DNA of 64,000 nt, taken from the NCBI RefSeq assembly GCF_016859125.1, contig NZ_CP069338.1:3126501-3190500 (forward strand), in the 5' to 3' direction. Below, piece after piece: positions 26,621 through 38,428 of the stretch. A program made the position numbers and the translations under genes. Source of the stretch: Archangium violaceum. GTDB taxonomy: Bacteria > Myxococcota > Myxococcia > Myxococcales > Myxococcaceae. Below the pieces are notes generated by a model. The model saw only the letters and a program-made list of their open reading frames with translations. It made no database searches and was not told where the DNA came from. Position 1 is the stretch's first letter; every line of letters starts with the position of its first letter.

Positions 26621-26776
26621 GCGCGTGTGTCCTCGAGCGCACGGAAGCCGGACGACTGACGGACAGCGGACGGCGGCACCGCACCGCGGTCCCCTGTCCT
26701 CCCCTGGCCCTTCCGGAGCATGACTCGCGCCCGGCGGTGCGCGGGATGGACCCGGCGCCGCCGGGGGGAGACGCAC

Positions 26777-27613
26777 ATGGCCGAGACGCGCGTGGGTGGG
26801 GCTCGCATCCGTTATGACGACGTGGGGCAGGGAGGGCCCACGCTGCTCTTCATCCCCGGCTGGTGTACCAGCCGCTCGGTGTTCCGAAAGCTGGCCCCCT
26901 GGTGCTCCACGCTCCACCGGACGCTCGTGGTGGATCTCCCCGGCCACGGCGAGTCCAGCCTGCCCGGCATGGACTTCGACAGCGCCAGCGTGGTGGACAT
27001 CCTGCGCTCCGTCATCGACGCCAGCGGTGCGCGCCAGGTGGTGCCCGTGGCCCTGTCCCACGCGGGCTGGTGGGCCCTCGAGCTGCGGCGCCAGCTCGGC
27101 CGGCGCGTGCCCGCGCTCGTGCTGCTGGACTGGCTCGTGCTGGAGCCACCTCCGGCCTTCCTCCAGGCGGTGCGGGCCCTGCAGACGCCCCAGTGGCGGC
27201 AGGCCCGTGACGGGCTCTTCTCCCTGTGGCTGCAAGGGGTGGGCGCGCCGGACGTCATCCGCTTCGTCCACGAGGACATGGGCTCCTTCGGCGAGGACAT
27301 GTGGAAGCGCGCCGGGCGCGAGGTGTCCCGCGCGTACGCGCAATACGGCAGCCCGCTACGGGCGCTCTCCGCCCTCTCGCCCACCCTCCCCACCCTCCAC
27401 CTCTATGCCCAACCGGAGGACAGCGCCTGGCTGGAGGCCCAGCGCTCGTTCGCCTCCTCGAATCCCTGGTTCCAGGTGCAGAAGCTCCCCGCGCGCAGCC
27501 ACTTCCCCCTGCTGGAGCTCCCCGAGGAAATGGCCGCCCGCATCGGCCGGTTCATCGACTCCCTCGTGGAGGTAGGCAACCCACTTGACAGGTTGGCTCC
27601 CTCCCCCTCTTGA
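26777..27613 (+). CDS. HOD/AqdC-like cofactor-independent 2,4-dioxygenase homologue
   Basis: 278 residues from ATG 26777, with GGGGGGAG ideally placed upstream. The fold is alpha/beta hydrolase, but the motifs align over the full length with HOD (1H-3-hydroxy-4-oxoquinaldine 2,4-dioxygenase): IPGWC, PVALSHAGWW, LLDWL, GLFSLWLQG, EDMGSFGEDMWKRAGREV, AQYGSPLRAL, NPWFQVQKL and SHFPLLELP. The HOD catalytic His251/Asp126 dyad and Ser101 correspond to H242, D118 and S94; HOD His100 and His38 are replaced by Leu and Thr. HOD-type enzymes, and AqdC, cleave alkyl-hydroxyquinolones including the Pseudomonas quinolone signal. Whether this one does is unproven; a plain esterase remains possible. A TetR gene follows. 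Confidence 0.7.
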   Translation: MAETRVGGARIRYDDVGQGGPTLLFIPGWCTSRSVFRKLAPWCSTLHRTLVVDLPGHGESSLPGMDFDSASVVDILRSVIDASGARQVVPVALSHAGWWALELRRQLGRRVPALVLLDWLVLEPPPAFLQAVRALQTPQWRQARDGLFSLWLQGVGAPDVIRFVHEDMGSFGEDMWKRAGREVSRAYAQYGSPLRALSALSPTLPTLHLYAQPEDSAWLEAQRSFASSNPWFQVQKLPARSHFPLLELPEEMAARIGRFIDSLVEVGNPLDRLAPSPS

Positions 27614-27633
27614 TTCCAACCCCCTCGCGCGGT

Positions 27634-27653
27634 TAGTTAGTTATCGATAGCTA
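27634..27653. promoter_or_regulatory. Palindromic TetR-type operator
   Basis: GTTAGTTATCGATAGCTAAC, a 20-base near-perfect palindrome (18 of 20 symmetric), 20 bases upstream of the TetR start. The position suggests autorepression by the TetR protein. Confidence 0.7.
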
Positions 27654-27673
27654 ACCAATCAGCGAGTGGAGTC

Positions 27674-28294
27674 ATGGGGAGACCCCGACAGGTCCTGGAC
27701 GAAGACATTCTCGAGGCGGCACGAGCCTGTTTCATCGAGCACGGAGCCTCGGTGAGTACGGAGACGATCGCCGCGCGTCTGGGGGTGTCGGGGCCGGCGT
27801 TGCTCAAGCGCTTCGGCAGCAAGCGGGAGCTGCTCAAGGCGGCGTTCGGGGTGGCGAAGACGCCGCCGTGGCTCGGGCTCATGGAGCAGGGTCCGGACGA
27901 GAGGGATTTGCGGGAGCAGATGCGCGAGGTGGCCGGGGCCATCGACGCCTTCTTCCGGAAGATGGTGCCGGCCTTAGCGGTGTTGCGCGAGGCGGGCATC
28001 ACCCCCGAGGACATGCGGGGGAAGGACGGGGAGCTGCCCCCTCCGGCGCGCACCTACGAGACGGTGGCGGGCTGGTTCCGCAGGGCCCAGGAGCAGGGCC
28101 GCCTGCGTGGGGGGGACCCCGGCGTCATGGGCGGCATGTTCCTGGCGGGCCTGCAGTACCGCCACTTCCTCGCCCACATCACCAACCAGACGGTGCCTCC
28201 GGAAGAGGGGGACCCGTGGGTGGATCGCATGGTGGACGTCTTCTGGCATGGCGTGGCGCCGGAGCAGAAGGGTGATGAGAAGGAGCGGGGCTGA
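27674..28294 (+). CDS. TetR-family transcriptional repressor
   Basis: 206 residues, ATG preceded by GTGGAGTC. The N-terminal TetR DNA-binding domain is complete: DILEAARACFIEHGASVSTE, TIAARLGVSGPALLKRFGSKRELLKAAF. The C-terminal half (helices around EMREVAGAIDAFFRKMVPAL, TYETVAGWFRRAQEQGRL) would form the ligand and dimer domain. It begins 60 bases after the dioxygenase-like gene, with a palindromic site in the gap, and ends one base from the convergent CHAT-WD40 gene. It probably controls itself and perhaps the neighbouring gene; the ligand is unknown. Confidence 0.9.
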   Translation: MGRPRQVLDEDILEAARACFIEHGASVSTETIAARLGVSGPALLKRFGSKRELLKAAFGVAKTPPWLGLMEQGPDERDLREQMREVAGAIDAFFRKMVPALAVLREAGITPEDMRGKDGELPPPARTYETVAGWFRRAQEQGRLRGGDPGVMGGMFLAGLQYRHFLAHITNQTVPPEEGDPWVDRMVDVFWHGVAPEQKGDEKERG

Positions 28295-28295
28295 T

Positions 28296-31200
28296 TCATC
28301 CGGGACCCCCTGGCCTGCTGGAGGTGAGGCTCGAGCGCTCGCGCACGCACCGCTCGAAGCCGATGCGGGACTCCTCGGGCGTCTCGAGGAGGTAGCGCTG
28401 CCGCTGCTCCGGTGACAGGCAGCCCGTGGTCGCCTCGCGCAGCAGCGTCTGGAGCCGGCCCGTCCCCACGCTCCACAGGCAGAGGGTCCGCTCCGTGCTC
28501 AAGAGGATGCGCGAGCCCTCCGGATCGAACTCCGCGGCGCCCACCTCGCCCTGGTGGAACAGGCTCACCACGGGCTCGCCCGAGCCCTCCTCCGTGCACC
28601 ACACCCGCGCCACCCCGTCCTCGGACACGGCGAGCACCCGCCGCCCGTCCGCGCTGAAGGAGAAGCGCGCCCTGACGCCGTAGGCGCGAAGCACGAGCGG
28701 CGAGCCGGCGCCATCCGCCCGCCACACCCGCGCCGTCCCGTCGTCCGACGCGGTGAGCACCCGCTGCCCGTCCGGACTGAAGGCCGCGCGCTCCACCCGT
28801 CCCTCGTGGCCCGTGAGCACCACGGGCTCCCCGGTGCCATCCGCCCGCCACACCCGCACCGTCCCCTCGCGCGAGCACGTCAACACCCGCTGTCCCTCCG
28901 GGCTGAAGGCCGCGCGCTCCACCTCTTCCTCGGGGCCGGCGATGAGCACGGGCTCGCCCTCGCCATCCGCCCGCCACACCCGCGTCGTCCCGTCCTCCGC
29001 GACGGTGACCACCTGCAGCCCGTCCGGGCTGAACTCGGAGGAGCGCACCCCGCCCACGTGGCCCGCGAGCACCACGGGTGGCCCCCCTCCATCCGCCCGC
29101 CATACCCGCGCCGTGCCGTCCTCCGACATGGAGAGCACCCGCTGCCCGTCCGGGCTGAACTCCGCGGACCACACCTCTTCCTCATGGCCCCGGAGCAACA
29201 CGGGCTCCCCGGTGCCGTCCGAGCGCCACACCCGCACCGTCCCCTCCCTCGAGCGGATGAGCACCCGCTGCCCGTCCGGGCTGAGCTCCGCGGGCCACAG
29301 CACCGCCAGGTAGCCCAGGAGCACCACGGGCACGCCGCTGCCGTCCGCCTGCCACACCCGCACGGTGCCTTCCCGCGAGGCGGTGACCACCCGCTGCCCG
29401 TCCGGGCTGAAGGCCCTGGAGCCCACCTCTCCCTCGCGGCCCGCGAGCACCACGGGCCTGCCCGTGCCGTCCGCCCGCCACACCCGCACCACCCCGTCTC
29501 CCGAGGCGGTGAGCACCCGCTTGCCGTCCGCGCTGAACTCGGCGGACCACACGCCGCCCTCGTGCCCCGCGAGCACCACGGGCCTGCCCGAGCCATCCGC
29601 CCGCCACACCCGCGCCGTCCCATCCTCCGACGCGGTGAGCACCCGCTTGCCGTCCGCGCTGAACTCGGCGAACCACACGCCGCCCTCGTGGCCCGCGAGC
29701 ACCACGGGCTCCTCGGAGCCGTCCCGCTTCCACACCCGCGCCGTCCCATCGCCCGACGCGGTGAGCACCCGCTTGCCGTCCGCGCTGAACGCCACGGACC
29801 ACACGCCGCCCGCGTGGCCCGCGAGCATGACGGGCGCTCCCTTCCCGTCCGCCCGCCACACCCGCGCCGTCCCGTCCTCCGACGCGGTGACCACCCGCCG
29901 CCCGTCCGGGCTGAACGCCGCCGCCGCGACACCGCCCGCATGGCCCCGGAGCACCACGGGCTTGCCCGAGCCATCCGCCCGCCACACCCGCGCCGTCCCG
30001 TCCTCCGACGCGGTGAGCACCCGCTGCCCGTCCGGACTGAACTCGGCCGAGCGCACGCCCCGCTCGTGGCCCCGGAGCACCACGGGCCTGCTCCCCCCAT
30101 CCGCGCTCCACACCCGCGCCGTCCCGTCCTCGGACGCGGTGAGCACCCGCTTGCCGTCCGCGCTGAACGTCGCCGTCCTCACGCCGCCCTCGTGGCCCCG
30201 GAGCATGACGGGCTCCTCGGTGCCATCCACCTGCGCCACCCGCACCGTCCCGTCCTCCGACACGATGAGCACCCGCTGCCCGTCCGGACTGAACTCCGTG
30301 GGCCACACCCGCTCCTCGTGGCCCGCGAGCACGAGCGGCTCCGCGGTGCCATCCGCCCGCCACATCCGCACCCGCCCCTCGCGCGACGTGGTGAGCACCC
30401 ACTGCCCGTCCGCGCTGAACTCGGCGGACCACACGCCACCCTCATGGCCCGCGAGCACCACGGGCGTCCCGGTGCCATCCGCCCGCCACACCCGCGCCGT
30501 CCCGTCCTCCGAGCCGGAGAGCACCCACTGCCCGTCCGCGCTGAAGCCGGCGAGCTCCACCTTCCCCTCATGGCCCTGGAACACCACGGGCTCCCCGCCG
30601 CCCCGCTGCAGCACCTCGAGCGCCGTCTGGTGCCACTCCGGCGTCCGCTCCGGCGCCGACACCTCGCGCAGCACGAGCGCCGCCATCGCCGGCTCCACCT
30701 CCATCAGCCGCCGGGCCTGGAGCACGCGCGACACCTCCAGCGCGTGCCGCAACCGCTCCTCCTCCGCGCGCCGGGCGTGCTCCTCCGCCTCCCGGGCCCA
30801 CTCCTCCGCCTCGCGCCCCCGCGACTCCTGCCCCCACCGCCCCAGCCGCTCCCACCGGCGGATCAACGCCTCGTGGGCGATCCTCAGCCACGTCTCCCCC
30901 GGCTGCCCACCGGTGCCGCCATCCGCGTCCCTCACCACCAGCCGGCGCCGCACCAGCTTCTCCACCACCGCGTCGAACGCGGCGGCGAGCTCCTCCTGCT
31001 CCGGACGCAATGACTTCAACGCCTCGCCCCGGAGATCCACCAGGCGCACGAGCAACTGACGCGCCTGGTGCCGCTCAGCCTCGGACAGCTCCGCGTAGAG
31101 CTGATCTCCCGTGCGGGCCAGCGCGCCCCCCACCCCGCCGAGCTCCTCGTAGGCGGCCTGTGTCAGCAGGCGCCCCACCCGCCGCTCCCATAACCGGTCC

Positions 31201-33149
31201 AGCACGTGCGAGAGCAACGGCAGCGAGCCCGGCTCCTGCTCCACGTCCCGCCTCAGCAGCTCCAGCAGGCCCGGCTCCAGCTCCAGCCCCACCGCCCGCG
31301 CGGGCCCCTCGATGCTCCGCGCGAGCAGCTCGCCCCGGAGCGGGCCGACGAAGAGCCGGTGCTCCCCCGAGTACACCACCTCGTCCAGGCGAGGGCCCTG
31401 GGCGTCCACCCGCACCTGCGCGCAGCGCTCGAGCGACTCCACCCGCAGCGTGCTCACCACCACCACGCCCGAGGCCTGGGAGTGCGCCAGCTTCCACAGC
31501 GCGCGCACGAAGGCCTCGCGCTCCTTCGGCGTGGAGGCCTCGTTGAGGAGCTCCTCGAGCGCGTCCACCACCAGCAGCAGCCACCGCCCCGGCCGGGCCT
31601 CGCGCAGGAGCCTCGCCTCCTGGAGGACCTCCGCGACCGTGGCGGGCCGCGTCGGGGGAGCGCCGTCGGGAAGATGGAGTCCGGCCAGCAACGCCCGCAG
31701 CCGTCCGAGGGAGCCGAACCGGCCCGGGCCCTCCGACGCGAGCGTCCGAAGCGTGCCCACCCCGCCCGAGCGCATCACCGCCACGTCCCATGGCTCTCGC
31801 GCGTCCTCGCGCAACCTGGGTATCAGCCCCGCGAGCACCAGCGAGGACTTGCCGCTGCCCGAGGCGCCCGCCACCACCTGGAAGCGCGAGCCCCAGCCCA
31901 CCCTCGCCGCGCGCACGCGCAGCACCAGCTCCCGCTCCAGCTCGCCCCGGCCGAAGAAGAAGCGCCGGTGCTCGGGCTCGAAGGGCAGCAGGCCGCGGTA
32001 GGGGCGCGGGGACAGGGGGCGGATGCCACAGCCGGCCTCGGCCCGGGCGTAGAGCTGCAACGAGGCCCATTCCATGAGCCCCGACTCCCGCAGACGCGCG
32101 CGCGCCGCGCCCAACGCGGCCTCCAGGGAGCCGGGCGCTTCCAGCGGCGCCTCGGGCGAGCCCGGGACACCGAGCAGCGTGCCGTAGAGCGTCTCGGTCA
32201 GCGCGAGGTAGCCCTCGTTGGACAGCCGCAGCCGCGAGGCCACCACGGCGGGAATCCCCATGCGGTGGAGCCCCTGGGCCACGCCGCCCAACTGGCTGCC
32301 CAGCCGCTCGTGGCCGCCCTGGCAGACGCACAACACCACCATCCGCAGCGTTCCGGCATGAGGCCCCAGCACCTCGCCCAGCCGGTGGGCGTCGACGAAG
32401 CTCTTGGTGTGCCCCGGGCTGTCTCCACCCTCCAGGAGGAGCCCGTCCACATTCCCCCTCTGTCCGCCGTGGCAGAGCAGGTGCAGCACACTCACCGGCT
32501 CGCGAGCGGCCCGGGAGCGCTCCAGCTCCCGGGACAGGGAGGAGAGCGACACATGGGCGAGCACGTCCCGCGCCTCGTCGAAGGGGTAGCCCCCCCTGAG
32601 GCAGACCTCGCGCAGCACCCGGAGGTGGGCCGGGGCGGGCACGTCGCCTCCGGCCGAGGACCAGGCGAAGAGGATGCGGCCCTCCGAGAAGGACGTTTCC
32701 ACCCGAGGCGGCTCGCCCGCTCCGGTCCACTCGTAGTGAAGGGTGCAGCCCTTCTGCTGGCTGAAGTGCTGCCCCGAGTCGCGCAGGGTCAGCAGCTCCC
32801 ACGGCAGCGCGTACAGCTCGGCGGCGGCCGAGCGCACGGTGAGGAGGACGTCCCGCTCCTGGCTCAGCGCCTCGTTCAGCTCCGCCTCGTCGCGGCCCCA
32901 GTCCAGCTCCTCGAGGAAGCGGCGCAGCTCGTGGCCCAGACGCTGGATGAGGGCGAGGTCCAGGTCCTTGCGCTCGAGGCGGGACAGGTCATCGAGGAGC
33001 CCCTGGCTCCAGGGGAAGAGGGCGCCGCGGACGGACCCGTCCGCCCGCTTCCGCAGGTACTCCTGCTTCTGGAAGTGGAAGGCGAAGGGATCGGCCGTGC
33101 TGTCCTTGCGAGACAGCTCCAGCGTCAGCACGAGGGGCTGGTTCTGCAC
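28296..33149 (-). CDS. CHAT protease - ATPase - WD40 repeat protein
   Basis: 1617 residues in one intact frame. Residues about 1-400 form a CHAT (caspase-fold) domain with the His in VLHLLCHGGQRG (about 225) and the Cys in MVVLCVCQGGHER (about 273). A STAND-like ATPase follows: P-loop VAGASGSGKSSLVLAGL at about 428 and a Walker B-like WLLLVVDALEELLNEA. A helical linker (about 790-850, REAEEWAREAEEHARRAEEE) leads to about 17 WD40 repeats of 42 residues (GHEGGVWSAEFSADGKRV, TASEDGTARVWRADG) to about residue 1565. This is an APAF1-like layout. Such proteins act as sensors that trigger proteolysis in conflict or programmed cell death. No partner gene of clear fit is adjacent. Confidence 0.92.
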   Translation of the reverse strand: MQNQPLVLTLELSRKDSTADPFAFHFQKQEYLRKRADGSVRGALFPWSQGLLDDLSRLERKDLDLALIQRLGHELRRFLEELDWGRDEAELNEALSQERDVLLTVRSAAAELYALPWELLTLRDSGQHFSQQKGCTLHYEWTGAGEPPRVETSFSEGRILFAWSSAGGDVPAPAHLRVLREVCLRGGYPFDEARDVLAHVSLSSLSRELERSRAAREPVSVLHLLCHGGQRGNVDGLLLEGGDSPGHTKSFVDAHRLGEVLGPHAGTLRMVVLCVCQGGHERLGSQLGGVAQGLHRMGIPAVVASRLRLSNEGYLALTETLYGTLLGVPGSPEAPLEAPGSLEAALGAARARLRESGLMEWASLQLYARAEAGCGIRPLSPRPYRGLLPFEPEHRRFFFGRGELERELVLRVRAARVGWGSRFQVVAGASGSGKSSLVLAGLIPRLREDAREPWDVAVMRSGGVGTLRTLASEGPGRFGSLGRLRALLAGLHLPDGAPPTRPATVAEVLQEARLLREARPGRWLLLVVDALEELLNEASTPKEREAFVRALWKLAHSQASGVVVVSTLRVESLERCAQVRVDAQGPRLDEVVYSGEHRLFVGPLRGELLARSIEGPARAVGLELEPGLLELLRRDVEQEPGSLPLLSHVLDRLWERRVGRLLTQAAYEELGGVGGALARTGDQLYAELSEAERHQARQLLVRLVDLRGEALKSLRPEQEELAAAFDAVVEKLVRRRLVVRDADGGTGGQPGETWLRIAHEALIRRWERLGRWGQESRGREAEEWAREAEEHARRAEEERLRHALEVSRVLQARRLMEVEPAMAALVLREVSAPERTPEWHQTALEVLQRGGGEPVVFQGHEGKVELAGFSADGQWVLSGSEDGTARVWRADGTGTPVVLAGHEGGVWSAEFSADGQWVLTTSREGRVRMWRADGTAEPLVLAGHEERVWPTEFSPDGQRVLIVSEDGTVRVAQVDGTEEPVMLRGHEGGVRTATFSADGKRVLTASEDGTARVWSADGGSRPVVLRGHERGVRSAEFSPDGQRVLTASEDGTARVWRADGSGKPVVLRGHAGGVAAAAFSPDGRRVVTASEDGTARVWRADGKGAPVMLAGHAGGVWSVAFSADGKRVLTASGDGTARVWKRDGSEEPVVLAGHEGGVWFAEFSADGKRVLTASEDGTARVWRADGSGRPVVLAGHEGGVWSAEFSADGKRVLTASGDGVVRVWRADGTGRPVVLAGREGEVGSRAFSPDGQRVVTASREGTVRVWQADGSGVPVVLLGYLAVLWPAELSPDGQRVLIRSREGTVRVWRSDGTGEPVLLRGHEEEVWSAEFSPDGQRVLSMSEDGTARVWRADGGGPPVVLAGHVGGVRSSEFSPDGLQVVTVAEDGTTRVWRADGEGEPVLIAGPEEEVERAAFSPEGQRVLTCSREGTVRVWRADGTGEPVVLTGHEGRVERAAFSPDGQRVLTASDDGTARVWRADGAGSPLVLRAYGVRARFSFSADGRRVLAVSEDGVARVWCTEEGSGEPVVSLFHQGEVGAAEFDPEGSRILLSTERTLCLWSVGTGRLQTLLREATTGCLSPEQRQRYLLETPEESRIGFERCVRERSSLTSSRPGGPG

Positions 33150-34632: not shown

Positions 34633-36483
34633 TCAATCCCGGTGGCCCAGGGCCTTGTCCAGGTTGTACGCCGCGCTGATGAGCGACAGGTGCGTGAGCG
34701 CCTGCGGGAAGTTGCCCAACGCCTCACCCGAGGGCCCGACCTGCTCCGCGAACAGGCCCACGTGGTTCGCGTAGCCCAGCATCCGCTCGAACGTCAGCCG
34801 GGCCTCGTCCAGCAGATCCGGCCGCGTCACCCTCGCCCGCGTCATCGCCTCCACCAGCCAGAAGGTGCACAGGTTGAACGTTCCCTCGCGCCCCGAAACC
34901 CCGTCCGGCGTCGCCTCCACGTCGTAGCGGAACACCAGCCCGTCCGACGTGAGTCCTCCCTGTGCCGGTGGTTTGCGGAGCACATCCAGCGTCGACAGCA
35001 TCCGCGGATCCACCGGTGACAGGAAGAACACCAGCGGCATCAGCAGGTTCGCCGCGTCCAGCGCCATCGACTCGTACGACTGGATGAACGCGCCCCGCTT
35101 CGAGCACCAGCCCTCGCGCATGATCTCCTCGAAGACGGTGTCGCGCGTGTGGAGCCACCGCGCACGGTCCGCCGGGAAGCTGCGCTTGTCCGCGAGCCGG
35201 ACGGCCCGGTCGAACGCCACCCAGCACATCATCTTCGAGTACACGAAGTGCTGCTTGCCCGCGCGCACCTCCCAGATGCTCTCGTCGCGCTCGCGCCAGT
35301 GATCGCACAGCCAGTTCATCAGCCGCCGCAGGTAGCTCCAGAAGTCATACGAGATGGGCGCCCCATACTTGTTGTACAGGTACACCGAGTCCATCAGCTC
35401 GCCGTAGATGTCGAGTTGCAGCTGGTGCGCCGCCCCGTTCCCCACGCGCACCGGCCTCGAGCCACCGTACCCCGCCAGGTGCCACAGCTCCTGCTCCTTC
35501 GGCACCTCGCCCCCGTCCAGCGCGTACATGAGGGGCAGGGACTCGCCTTCGGGCAGCTCCTCGATGCGCTTCTCCAGCCAGCGCATGAACGCCCCCGCCT
35601 CCTCGTGGAAGCCGATGCGCATCAGCGCGTACACCGTGAAGGCCGCGTCGCGAATCCACACGTAGCGGTAGTCCCAGTTGCGGGTGCCTCCCGGGAACTC
35701 CGGCAGGCTGCACGTGGGCGCCGCCACGATGGCTCCCGAGGGCTCGAACGTCATCAGCTTCAGCACCAGCGCCGAGCGCTGCACCGTCTCGCGCCACCGC
35801 CCCGTGTAGCTGCACTTCGCCAGCCAGTGCCGCCAGTAGTCCACCGTGGAGCGGAACAGCACCTCCGAGGCCTCGTGCCCCATCACCCGCTCGTGGCACG
35901 ACTCCGGCGCGCCCTCGCGCAGCGAGAACACCACCGACTGGCCCTCGTGCAGCGAGAAGCGCGCGGTGACCCGCTGCCCATCCGTCTCCAGCTTCATGGA
36001 CGTGGCCAGCGACAGGCTCAGCGTCTCCGACAGGAAGCTCGCCCCGCCGCGGATGAGCCGCACCGCGTGCGCGTCCCGCGCGTAGTTGAAGGCGGGCAGG
36101 CACTCCATCTGGAAGGACATCTGCCCGCGTACCACGCGGATGCGGCGCACCACCTCGCGCAGGGCGTCCTTCCTGCCCACGGGCATGAAGTCCACCAGCT
36201 CGCCCACGCCATCCCGCGAGTAGAAGCGCGTCACCAGGACGTTGGTGTCCGGCCAGTAGAACTGCTTGCGCACCACCCCGTCCTGCTCCAGCTCGGGGCT
36301 GATGCGGAAGTGGCCGCCCTTCTCCCGGTCCAGCAGCGCCCCGAAGACGCTCGGGCTGTCGAAATACGGGAAGCACAGCCAGTCCATCGTGCCGTCCGTC
36401 GCCACCAGGGCCACGGTCCGCATGTCCCCGATGACGCCGTGGTCCTCGATGGTTGGAGGCCGCGATGTCCATTCCCCGTTCAT
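34633..36483 (-). CDS. Glycoside hydrolase family 15 protein (trehalase/glucoamylase-like)
   Basis: 616 residues, ATG preceded by GGGAGG. The N-terminal trehalase-like beta domain opens with [20 protein letters not shown] and [20 protein letters not shown]. The (alpha/alpha)6 GH15 barrel has [20 protein letters not shown], with the general-acid glutamate region around [20 protein letters not shown] and the second acidic site near [20 protein letters not shown]. Length and motifs match bacterial GH15 family members acting on trehalose or alpha-glucans. Cytoplasmic, no signal. It is the last gene of a run with a cyclase-family gene and a glucose dehydrogenase, so trehalose-to-glucose-to-gluconolactone is a plausible flow. 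Confidence 0.9.
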
Positions 36484-36586: not shown

Positions 36587-37228
36587 CTACTCCACGGCCG
36601 GACTGCGCAGCGCGCGCACCAGCGCCCGCGCCGGCGAGCCCCACTCCGCCTTCACCTTCAGCGGCAGGCACACCAGCTCGTGCACCCCCACCTTCACGTC
36701 GCTCAAATCCAACCCCTCGATGAGCCACACGCCCGTCTCGCGCAGCTTCTGGTGCACGCCCATCGCCTCCGCGTGGAAGCCCACGCGCGACACGTAGTCC
36801 ACCCCCACGCACGCCACCTGCCGCTCCACCAGCAGCCGCGCCGCCGCCTCCGACAGCATCACGAAGTCCTCCGCGTGCGGCCGCTTCCACCACTCGCGCA
36901 GCGAGTTGCGCGTGCGTAGCAGCAACCGCTCCCCGGGCTTCGGTTCATATTCCGCCAGCGAGTCCGCCCGGATGCAGTCCACGTCGTCCAGGTGCAGCAC
37001 CCGCGCCTTGCCCACCGTCGCGCTCAGCGGCAACCGCTCCGTGTCCTCCAGGTCCAGCTCCAGGCTCGGCGGCGCCGTCACGTACGTCCCCATCCACGCC
37101 GTCCGCTTGAGCCAGCCGGCCTGCTCCGCCGCCGTCTCCGGGAGCCCACCCCCCGACTGCGTCCCCTCCGCTTGTGCCAATGGCTCCTCACCGAACGGCA
37201 CCGAGATGTCCAGCCAGGCTCCCTCCAT
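36587..37228 (-). CDS. Cyclase-family (kynurenine formamidase-like) protein, degenerate metal site
   Basis: 213 residues, start with GGAGGAACACC upstream. The overall pattern is of the putative cyclase family PF04199 ([72 protein letters not shown]). The family metal motif (HxGTHxDxPxH) is replaced by [14 protein letters not shown], so the usual zinc/manganese histidines are missing and classic hydrolase activity is doubtful. Lies between the glucose dehydrogenase and GH15 genes with gaps of about 104 bases each, same strand. A lactone- or sugar-related role is possible, since gluconolactone would form next door. Confidence 0.75.
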
Positions 37229-37333: not shown

Positions 37334-38428
37334 TCACTCCGGGGTGAAGATGAGGACATCCTTGATGTCGCTGCGTTTCTCCCCCGTGACCACCTCGGCG
37401 TAGTCCTCCGGCCGGTGCCTCGCGGTGAGCAGCCGCTCCACCTTCCCGGGCCACTTCGCCCGGAAGCGCCCGAGGTCCTCCAGCGCGGACTCGAAATCCA
37501 CCGCCGCCGCGTTCACCGTGCCGATCAGCACCTGGTTGTTCATCACCACCTGCTTCATCAGCCCACCCTCGTCCAGCCGCTCCTCCTCGCTTTCTGAAAC
37601 ACCGGTGAAGATGAACACGCCATTGGGTGCCAGGGCCGAGAGCAGCTCGAAGGCGGCGCTCGCCACACCCGCGGCCTCGTACACCACGTCCGCCCTGCCC
37701 CGCTGCTTCACCAGCGCGTCCACCGGGTTCTCCTTCGAGGACACGTACGGCGCGCCCAGCGACTCGGACAGCTCCGCCTTGGCGTTGGGCTTGGGCGAGC
37801 GAGAGTACACCGTCGTCTGGAAGCCCGCGCGCATGAGCGCCATGGCCCCCAGGAGGCCCACCGGCCCGGCGCCCAGCACCACCGCCCTGCCCGGCAATTG
37901 CCGCTGCCACGGCATCCGCGTCTGGACATGCGCCACCTCGCGCAGGGCCTTCTCGGCGATGGTGAGTGGCTCCGTCAGCACCGCCACCCCGCGCAGCTCG
38001 CGCGGCACCTTGTGCAGGTATTGCGAGTCCTCCACGAAGGACTCCGCCGCGAAGCCATGCGCCCCCTGAATCCCGCGCTCGGTGTACTCGCCCGTCACGC
38101 AGAAGTCCGTGGCCCCCGTGCGGCACGGCAGGCAGTCCGGGCTCGGGCACGGCCTGCGCACCCGCGGCACCACCAGGTCTCCCGGCGCGAGGTCCTTCAC
38201 CTGCTCGCCCACCTCCACCACCTCGCCCAGGCACTCGTGCCCGACGATGAGGTGGTCCTCCCCCTCGGGCGGCTTGCCGTGCTTGAACTGCACCACCTCC
38301 TTGTCCGTGCCGCACACGCCCACCTCCAACGTGCGCACCCGCACGTCCGTGGGCGAGCGCAACCGCGGCTCCGGCACGTCGATGACCTTCACTTCGCGGC
38401 CCTTCGGGAAAACCGCCACCGCCTTCAT
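37334..38428 (-). CDS. Zinc-dependent glucose 1-dehydrogenase (MDR superfamily)
   Basis: 364 residues, ATG preceded by GAGGAGG. The medium-chain dehydrogenase pattern is complete: catalytic zinc ligands CGTDKE and GHECLGEV, the four-cysteine structural zinc loop PCPSPDCLPCRTGATDFC, GEYTERGIQGAHGFAAE and the nucleotide fold AVVLGAGPVGLLGAMALMRA. The TGEYTERGI-GAHGF segment is characteristic of the glucose dehydrogenase group (archaeal-type Gdh) oxidising D-glucose to gluconolactone with NAD(P). First gene of an apparent three-gene operon with the cyclase-like and GH15 genes. Intact. Confidence 0.88.
   Translation of the reverse strand: MKAVAVFPKGREVKVIDVPEPRLRSPTDVRVRTLEVGVCGTDKEVVQFKHGKPPEGEDHLIVGHECLGEVVEVGEQVKDLAPGDLVVPRVRRPCPSPDCLPCRTGATDFCVTGEYTERGIQGAHGFAAESFVEDSQYLHKVPRELRGVAVLTEPLTIAEKALREVAHVQTRMPWQRQLPGRAVVLGAGPVGLLGAMALMRAGFQTTVYSRSPKPNAKAELSESLGAPYVSSKENPVDALVKQRGRADVVYEAAGVASAAFELLSALAPNGVFIFTGVSESEEERLDEGGLMKQVVMNNQVLIGTVNAAAVDFESALEDLGRFRAKWPGKVERLLTARHRPEDYAEVVTGEKRSDIKDVLIFTPE

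Follow-up and report, generated by a model that had tools for sequence, protein, structure and literature searches.

Dioxygenases of the HOD type break quinolone rings with O2 and do so in the absence of any metal or cofactor; to our knowledge, few cofactor-free dioxygenases have been characterised so far. They include HOD itself (HodC or MeqE, the 1H-3-hydroxy-4-oxoquinaldine 2,4-dioxygenase of Arthrobacter sp. Rue61a; PDB 2WJ3 and others), QDO (the 1H-3-hydroxy-4-oxoquinoline 2,4-dioxygenase of Pseudomonas putida 33/1; PDB 3IBT) as well as the dioxygenases of the Pseudomonas quinolone signal (PQS), AqdC (Mycobacteroides abscessus; PDB 6RA2) and AqdC2 (Rhodococcus erythropolis BG43). A family study that appeared in AEM in 2020 reportedly lists more than 150 predicted members of this family of cofactor-free 3-hydroxy-4(1H)-quinolone 2,4-dioxygenases (HQDs). 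For oxygenation, HOD needs only a His-Asp pair, with O2 contacting Trp36 and His102; the enzyme furthermore retains a serine that is not used in this reaction and that keeps some hydrolase-like reactivity (PMC10548524).

The window analysed here, i. e., a stretch of 64,000 nucleotides from Archangium violaceum (G000:C1:3126501-3190500, within a genome consisting of a single contig of 12,677,854 bp), encodes a homologue of these enzymes next to a gene for a TetR regulator. The earlier note had described both open reading frames and had proposed the first as a HOD/AqdC-like dioxygenase, possibly a quorum quencher; both were confirmed at their positions. The features relevant to the discussion are as follows:

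26677..26725 (+): upstream block of the enzyme gene with a core CGTCCCCTGTCC-type stretch and GGAGCATGAC (alignment)
26777..27613 (+): HOD-family protein with α/β-hydrolase fold, 278 aa (PDB search, alignment, model); key residues Trp29, Ser94, His95, Asp118, Trp151, Trp176, and His242, equivalent to W36, S101, H102, D126, W160, W185, and H251 of HOD
27610..27617 (+): TTGATTCC box, conserved before the TetR operator irrespective of whether the enzyme gene is present (11-sequence alignment)
27636..27655 (strand not applicable): 20-base palindrome GTTAGTTATCGATAGCTAAC, probable autoregulatory operator of the TetR gene (alignment and genome scan)
27674..28294 (+): TetR-family regulator, 206 aa (TetR_N, TetR_C_7; family scan)

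Fold and active site of the HOD-like protein

An in-frame ATG also occurs at 26720, upstream of the assigned start of the enzyme gene. The start at 26777 is preferred, since the purine-rich GGGGGGAG lies just 5′ of it and all seven copies from the genus align from MAET, while the ATG at 26720 is disfavoured because its conserved GGAGCATGAC is found at a varying distance from MAET in these copies. The upstream block is kept in seven of seven genus copies, including one that lacks an adjoining TetR gene, and to judge from the alignment it probably functions as promoter or 5′ leader. Within the genus, the gene is under purifying selection (pairwise dN/dS 0.22–0.52), and we infer a cytoplasmic location for its product.

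In a phmmer search of the PDB, the protein retrieved HOD (E = 4.6e-48), AqdC (8.9e-47), and QDO (2.5e-43), followed by the next family only at 1.8e-9. The similarity extends over the full length (query residues about 4–262), as had been claimed for HOD, at an identity of about 32–35 % (HOD 32–33 %, QDO 32 %, AqdC and AqdC2 about 33–35 %). An AlphaFold2 model built from 34 relatives (pLDDT 93.4, pTM 0.91) superimposed on AqdC, HOD, and QDO with Z scores of 36.7–37.9 and an rmsd of 1.6–1.7 over 260–267 residues; AqdC was the best structural match (Z 37.9, rmsd 1.6), followed by HOD (Z 37.4) and QDO (Z 36.7). The next structural matches were haloalkane dehalogenases and esterases (Z ≤26.4, rmsd about 3), which places the α/β-hydrolase fold of the model, with its HOD-type cap, nearer to HOD, AqdC, and QDO than to the hydrolases. 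Scans against Pfam and NCBIfam returned generic α/β-hydrolase models only and no HOD-specific one; as NCBIfam offers no HOD-specific model even for HOD and AqdC2, these scans cannot decide the family of the enzyme.

The active-site positions were taken from the list available for HOD (PMC10548524). The general-base dyad of the family is present as His242 and Asp118 (H251 and D126 of HOD), and Ser94 corresponds to S101, in agreement with the catalytic His/Asp dyad and serine that had been noticed earlier. The site for O2 and the aromatic ring (Trp36, His102, Phe136, Trp160, and Trp185 of HOD) is likewise preserved at five of five positions. In the alignment underlying the tree described below, His251, His102, Trp36, Phe136, Trp160, and Trp185 (HOD numbering) show no exception across the family (62 of 62 rows), and Asp126 is retained in 60 rows. 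His102 occurs in none of the 29 generic hydrolases, 27 of which carry the serine at the nucleophile elbow. Within the family, this serine is replaced by alanine in 6 of 16 non-myxobacterial rows of the grade to which the window protein belongs, in every enterobacterial row (12 of 12), and in 8 of the 11 rows of the HOD clade, while the 23 myxobacterial rows all combine Ser94 with a full Ser-His-Asp triad. Such a loss of the nucleophile, with the His-Asp pair and His102 retained, fits the mechanism of HOD. The residues of a serine-hydrolase triad are present in the window protein, and hydrolysis would be possible by sequence, but the serine is dispensable in relatives and unused for oxygenation by HOD.

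The first shell of residues that contact the quinolone in HOD differs at three positions, with His38 changed to Thr (Thr31), His100 to Leu (Leu93), and Gly103 to Ala. The replacement of both histidines had been recognised before and had been taken to point to a possibly altered activity. The replacement is real, but it is no argument against activity, since QDO, an established dioxygenase, carries Gln and Thr at these positions and, like the window protein, keeps the serine. AqdC, unlike the window protein, has His at both positions and Ala at the elbow; the enterobacterial HOD-like proteins (Photorhabdus, Serratia, Rahnella, and Pantoea) share Ala103 and the non-His state at 38 and 100 with the window protein, but differ in their elbow Ala. 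The state of positions 38 and 100 thus marks a subgroup rather than inactivity.

Position in the family and distribution

Relatives were gathered from the same phylum, a genome collection, plasmids, and three families represented by a Nocardia, a Propionivibrio, and a Serratia, respectively. The resulting maximum-likelihood tree comprised 91 rows, i. e., 62 HOD-like proteins and 29 generic α/β hydrolases, and included five of the characterised enzymes, namely HOD, QDO, AqdC, AqdC2, and the HQD of N. farcinica; further validated HQDs are known, for example, from S. bingchenggensis. All HOD-like rows including the window protein were separated from the generic hydrolases at 100/100. The homology to cofactor-free dioxygenases proposed in the earlier note thus holds in the PDB search, the structure, and the tree alike, and the protein does not fall among esterases; it does not, however, lie inside the clade formed by the five characterised enzymes (100/94), QDO among them. 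The enterobacterial proteins constitute a clade of their own (100/99), which joins the HOD clade (97/97) away from the branch of the window protein. The latter groups with its own genus (100/99) among Myxococcus, Hyalangium, Citreicoccus, and scattered non-myxobacteria, and its branch also holds Acidobacteria and some Actinobacteria. When this grade was constrained as a clade, the topology was not rejected (p-AU 0.475), so that it may be either a clade or a basal grade. No assayed enzyme was found on this branch, and a literature search under the terms tried yielded no paper naming a myxobacterial HOD homologue.

Homologues occur in 38 of 195 genomes and 5 of 90 genera sampled from the phylum, all within one family. 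The gene is present in all sampled genomes of the genus of the window (6/6) and of a second genus (g19; 27/27) that holds Myxococcus and Pyxidicoccus, with M. xanthus itself among the carriers (L054). In these 27 and 6 genomes, the branch combines an intact catalytic core with a different first shell around the substrate, and it raises the questions of whether predatory myxobacteria destroy the PQS of their prey and how many kinds of substrate the hydrolase fold can attack with O2 in the absence of a metal. Four genomes of a further genus (g6), which we take to be Cystobacter, lack the enzyme gene. No relative of the enzyme was detected in the viral contigs scanned. One record titled Comamonas sp. 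KCTC 72670 (L051; BNCN01000001.1) contains an enzyme that groups within Myxococcus, and the record is probably mislabelled.

Probable reaction and candidate substrates

We consider the protein to be a cofactor-free enzyme of the dioxygenase type that belongs to the HOD/QDO/AqdC superclade, occupies a branch distinct from the quinolone dioxygenases placed in the tree, and is expressed from its own promoter, and we would put the probability of this reading at roughly 60 %. In the mechanism that we propose, the substrate, an aromatic or N-heteroaromatic compound, would be positioned beneath Trp29, Phe128, Trp151, and Trp176 and lose the proton of its enolic OH group to the His242-Asp118 dyad, while O2 would be bound in the old oxyanion hole (Trp29 amide and His95). 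The substrate anion would then pass an electron to O2, and the resulting peroxide would close and break the ring; in the case of a 3-hydroxy-4(1H)-quinolone, CO would be released. Ser94 would tune the occupancy by O2 and water rather than act as nucleophile.

A narrower form of this explanation assumes that an N-heteroaromatic compound other than PQS, either self-made or dietary (such as a natural product of the quinoline type or a metabolite derived from anthranilate), is detoxified or turned over. This is a tentative but possible scenario: the enzyme is found in every sampled genome of both genera, with no tie to a known quinolone pathway, and relatives of the same grade occur in organisms that are not predators as far as is known, such as Nocardioides, Plasticicumulans, and Acidobacteria; on the other hand, no biosynthetic cluster was found beside the enzyme gene. 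Likewise tentative is the proposal that the myxobacterial branch as such comprises functionally distinct cofactor-free oxygenases with a substrate other than 3-hydroxy-4(1H)-quinolones. If true, a new reaction would be added to those that the hydrolase fold carries out with O2 but without metal or cofactor, and this in Myxococcus xanthus itself.

In the earlier note, the enzyme had been suggested as a possible quorum quencher in a predator. Under this reading, PQS acquired from Pseudomonas prey would be cleaved to N-octanoylanthranilate and CO, and the TetR regulator would release its repression upon binding of the signal. The closest solved relatives indeed include the PQS dioxygenase AqdC, the known aqd cluster also contains a TetR regulator (AqdR), and myxobacteria do meet quinolones, with responses that vary by species (PMC9257966). 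However, the enzyme lies outside the clade of the characterised enzymes placed, at 32–34 % identity, and no quinolone pathway gene is linked to its gene. AqdC belongs to aqdRABC together with a carboxylesterase (AqdA) and an FAD monooxygenase (AqdB), and neither aqdA nor aqdB was found near the enzyme gene; at other places of the genome, the top matches reach 40 % identity over part of AqdA and 29 % for AqdB. Since HHQ is not a substrate of HOD-type enzymes, data on this compound do not exclude cleavage of PQS, but they bear on a simple link between the gene and HHQ metabolism. According to published work, HHQ is left unmetabolised by M. xanthus, which carries the homologue, and is oxidised to PQS, HQNO, and PQS-N-oxide by C. 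ferrugineus, where a PqsH-like enzyme is induced 31-fold; in the passages considered, feeding of PQS is reported for C. ferrugineus only (PMC9257966). With the four probable Cystobacter genomes lacking the enzyme gene, the contrast between the species appears opposite to the gene distribution, which renders such a link unlikely. PQS quenching is a possible, though not a probable, function.

It is also improbable that the protein functions as a conventional serine hydrolase (an esterase, lactonase, or amidase) and owes its resemblance to HOD to shared ancestry only. In favour of this are the Ser94-His242-Asp118 triad of all myxobacterial rows, the purely generic names given by Pfam and NCBIfam (by NCBIfam for HOD and AqdC2 likewise), and the residual hydrolase-like reactivity of the HOD serine (PMC10548524). 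Against it stand the repeated exchange of this serine for alanine among relatives of the same grade, the invariance of His102, Trp36, and Trp160, which HOD employs for O2 and the aromatic ring (the first being absent from the 29 generic hydrolases), and the structural comparison, in which over 10 Z units separate the dioxygenases from the next matches.

The adjoining TetR gene and its probable operator

While the HOD gene adjoins genes for an FAD monooxygenase and an α/β hydrolase on plasmid pAL1, the neighbours of the enzyme gene in the window encode a nucleotide cyclase, the TetR regulator, and an nSTAND/WD40 protein. The last of these (28296-33149, −) is 1617 aa long and comprises an NTPase domain of the nSTAND1 type, 12 or more WD40 repeats, and a putative caspase-like LHLLCHG stretch at its N-terminus.

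The palindrome before the TetR gene, which the earlier note had taken to suggest ligand-induced control, is real as a sequence feature: 18 of its 20 positions are symmetric, a degree that was reached 30 times when the 60-bp intergenic region was shuffled 20,000 times. A scan of the 12.68-Mb genome gave a single occurrence of GTTAGTTATCGATAGCTAAC, one more site at 3 mismatches, and zero matches for controls. It is part of a block, TTGATTCC ... TTAGTTAGTTA ... TAGCTAACCAA ... ATG, that precedes tetR in six of six genomes of the genus, and the same TTGATTCC-TTAGTTAGTTA-TAGCTAACCAA arrangement precedes an orthologous tetR (about 70 % identity) in the four enzyme-less g6 genomes, where shared flanking gene families tie the loci of both genera together. 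The TTGATTCC box is possibly the −35 element of the tetR promoter, and the stop codon of the enzyme gene (TGA, 27611-27613) falls inside it, suggesting that the enzyme gene arrived directly upstream of a pre-existing tetR promoter.

Control of the enzyme by this regulator, as also envisaged earlier, does not survive these comparisons and is unlikely, since the tetR-operator unit exists without the enzyme in four genomes, the operator lies 3′ of the enzyme gene, where it precedes tetR, and the enzyme gene has an upstream block of its own. Moreover, a BLAST comparison of the window TetR with AqdR gave no significant similarity; an AqdR homologue with an operator before catabolic genes is thus not found at the enzyme locus, and outside the genus the regulator and the enzyme show no linkage, both of which speak against PQS quenching as well. 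One genome of the genus (G006) has two copies of the enzyme gene (G006:C1:4270653-4271474 and 13029139-13029963), only one of which lies beside tetR; the second has the upstream block but no such neighbour. Autoregulation of tetR is the better reading of the conserved arrangement, and tetR appears to have been at the locus for longer than the enzyme gene, to which it is not specific. In the preferred explanation, the enzyme gene would be transcribed from its own promoter and the downstream TetR, as the older neighbour, would repress itself, making the pair a neighbourhood rather than a regulated operon.

In Myxococcus and Citreicoccus (L157 8827-11613 and equivalent loci), the homologue is located upstream, on the same strand, of genes for a BetI-like TetR, which is unrelated to that of the window, and an AmpG/RhtX-like MFS transporter. 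As about 1 kb sometimes lies between them, this too is a neighbourhood and not an operon. An operon partner conserved across phyla was sought in 20 neighbourhoods and none was found with the script-based gene calls, which may miss small genes.

A putative cyclase of the kynurenine formamidase fold (PF04199) is encoded further downstream in the window (36587-37228, −), with a GH15/trehalase-like gene (34633-36483) on one side and a glucose-dehydrogenase-like gene (37334-38428) on the other; this trio also lies close to the tetR orthologue in the enzyme-less relatives. Finally, a second copy of the promoter, operator, and first codons of tetR (MGRPQQVLDEE; window 27602-27747) begins a gene, at its 5′ end, for a membrane phosphatase of the PAP2 superfamily, at about 2266700-2266870 of G000:C1 (L180 7680-7860), with a local alignment score of 113 as compared to ≤43 for other pieces. 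Judged by the aligned segments, this looks like a promoter capture through which the same TetR would also come to control a gene for a lipid phosphatase.
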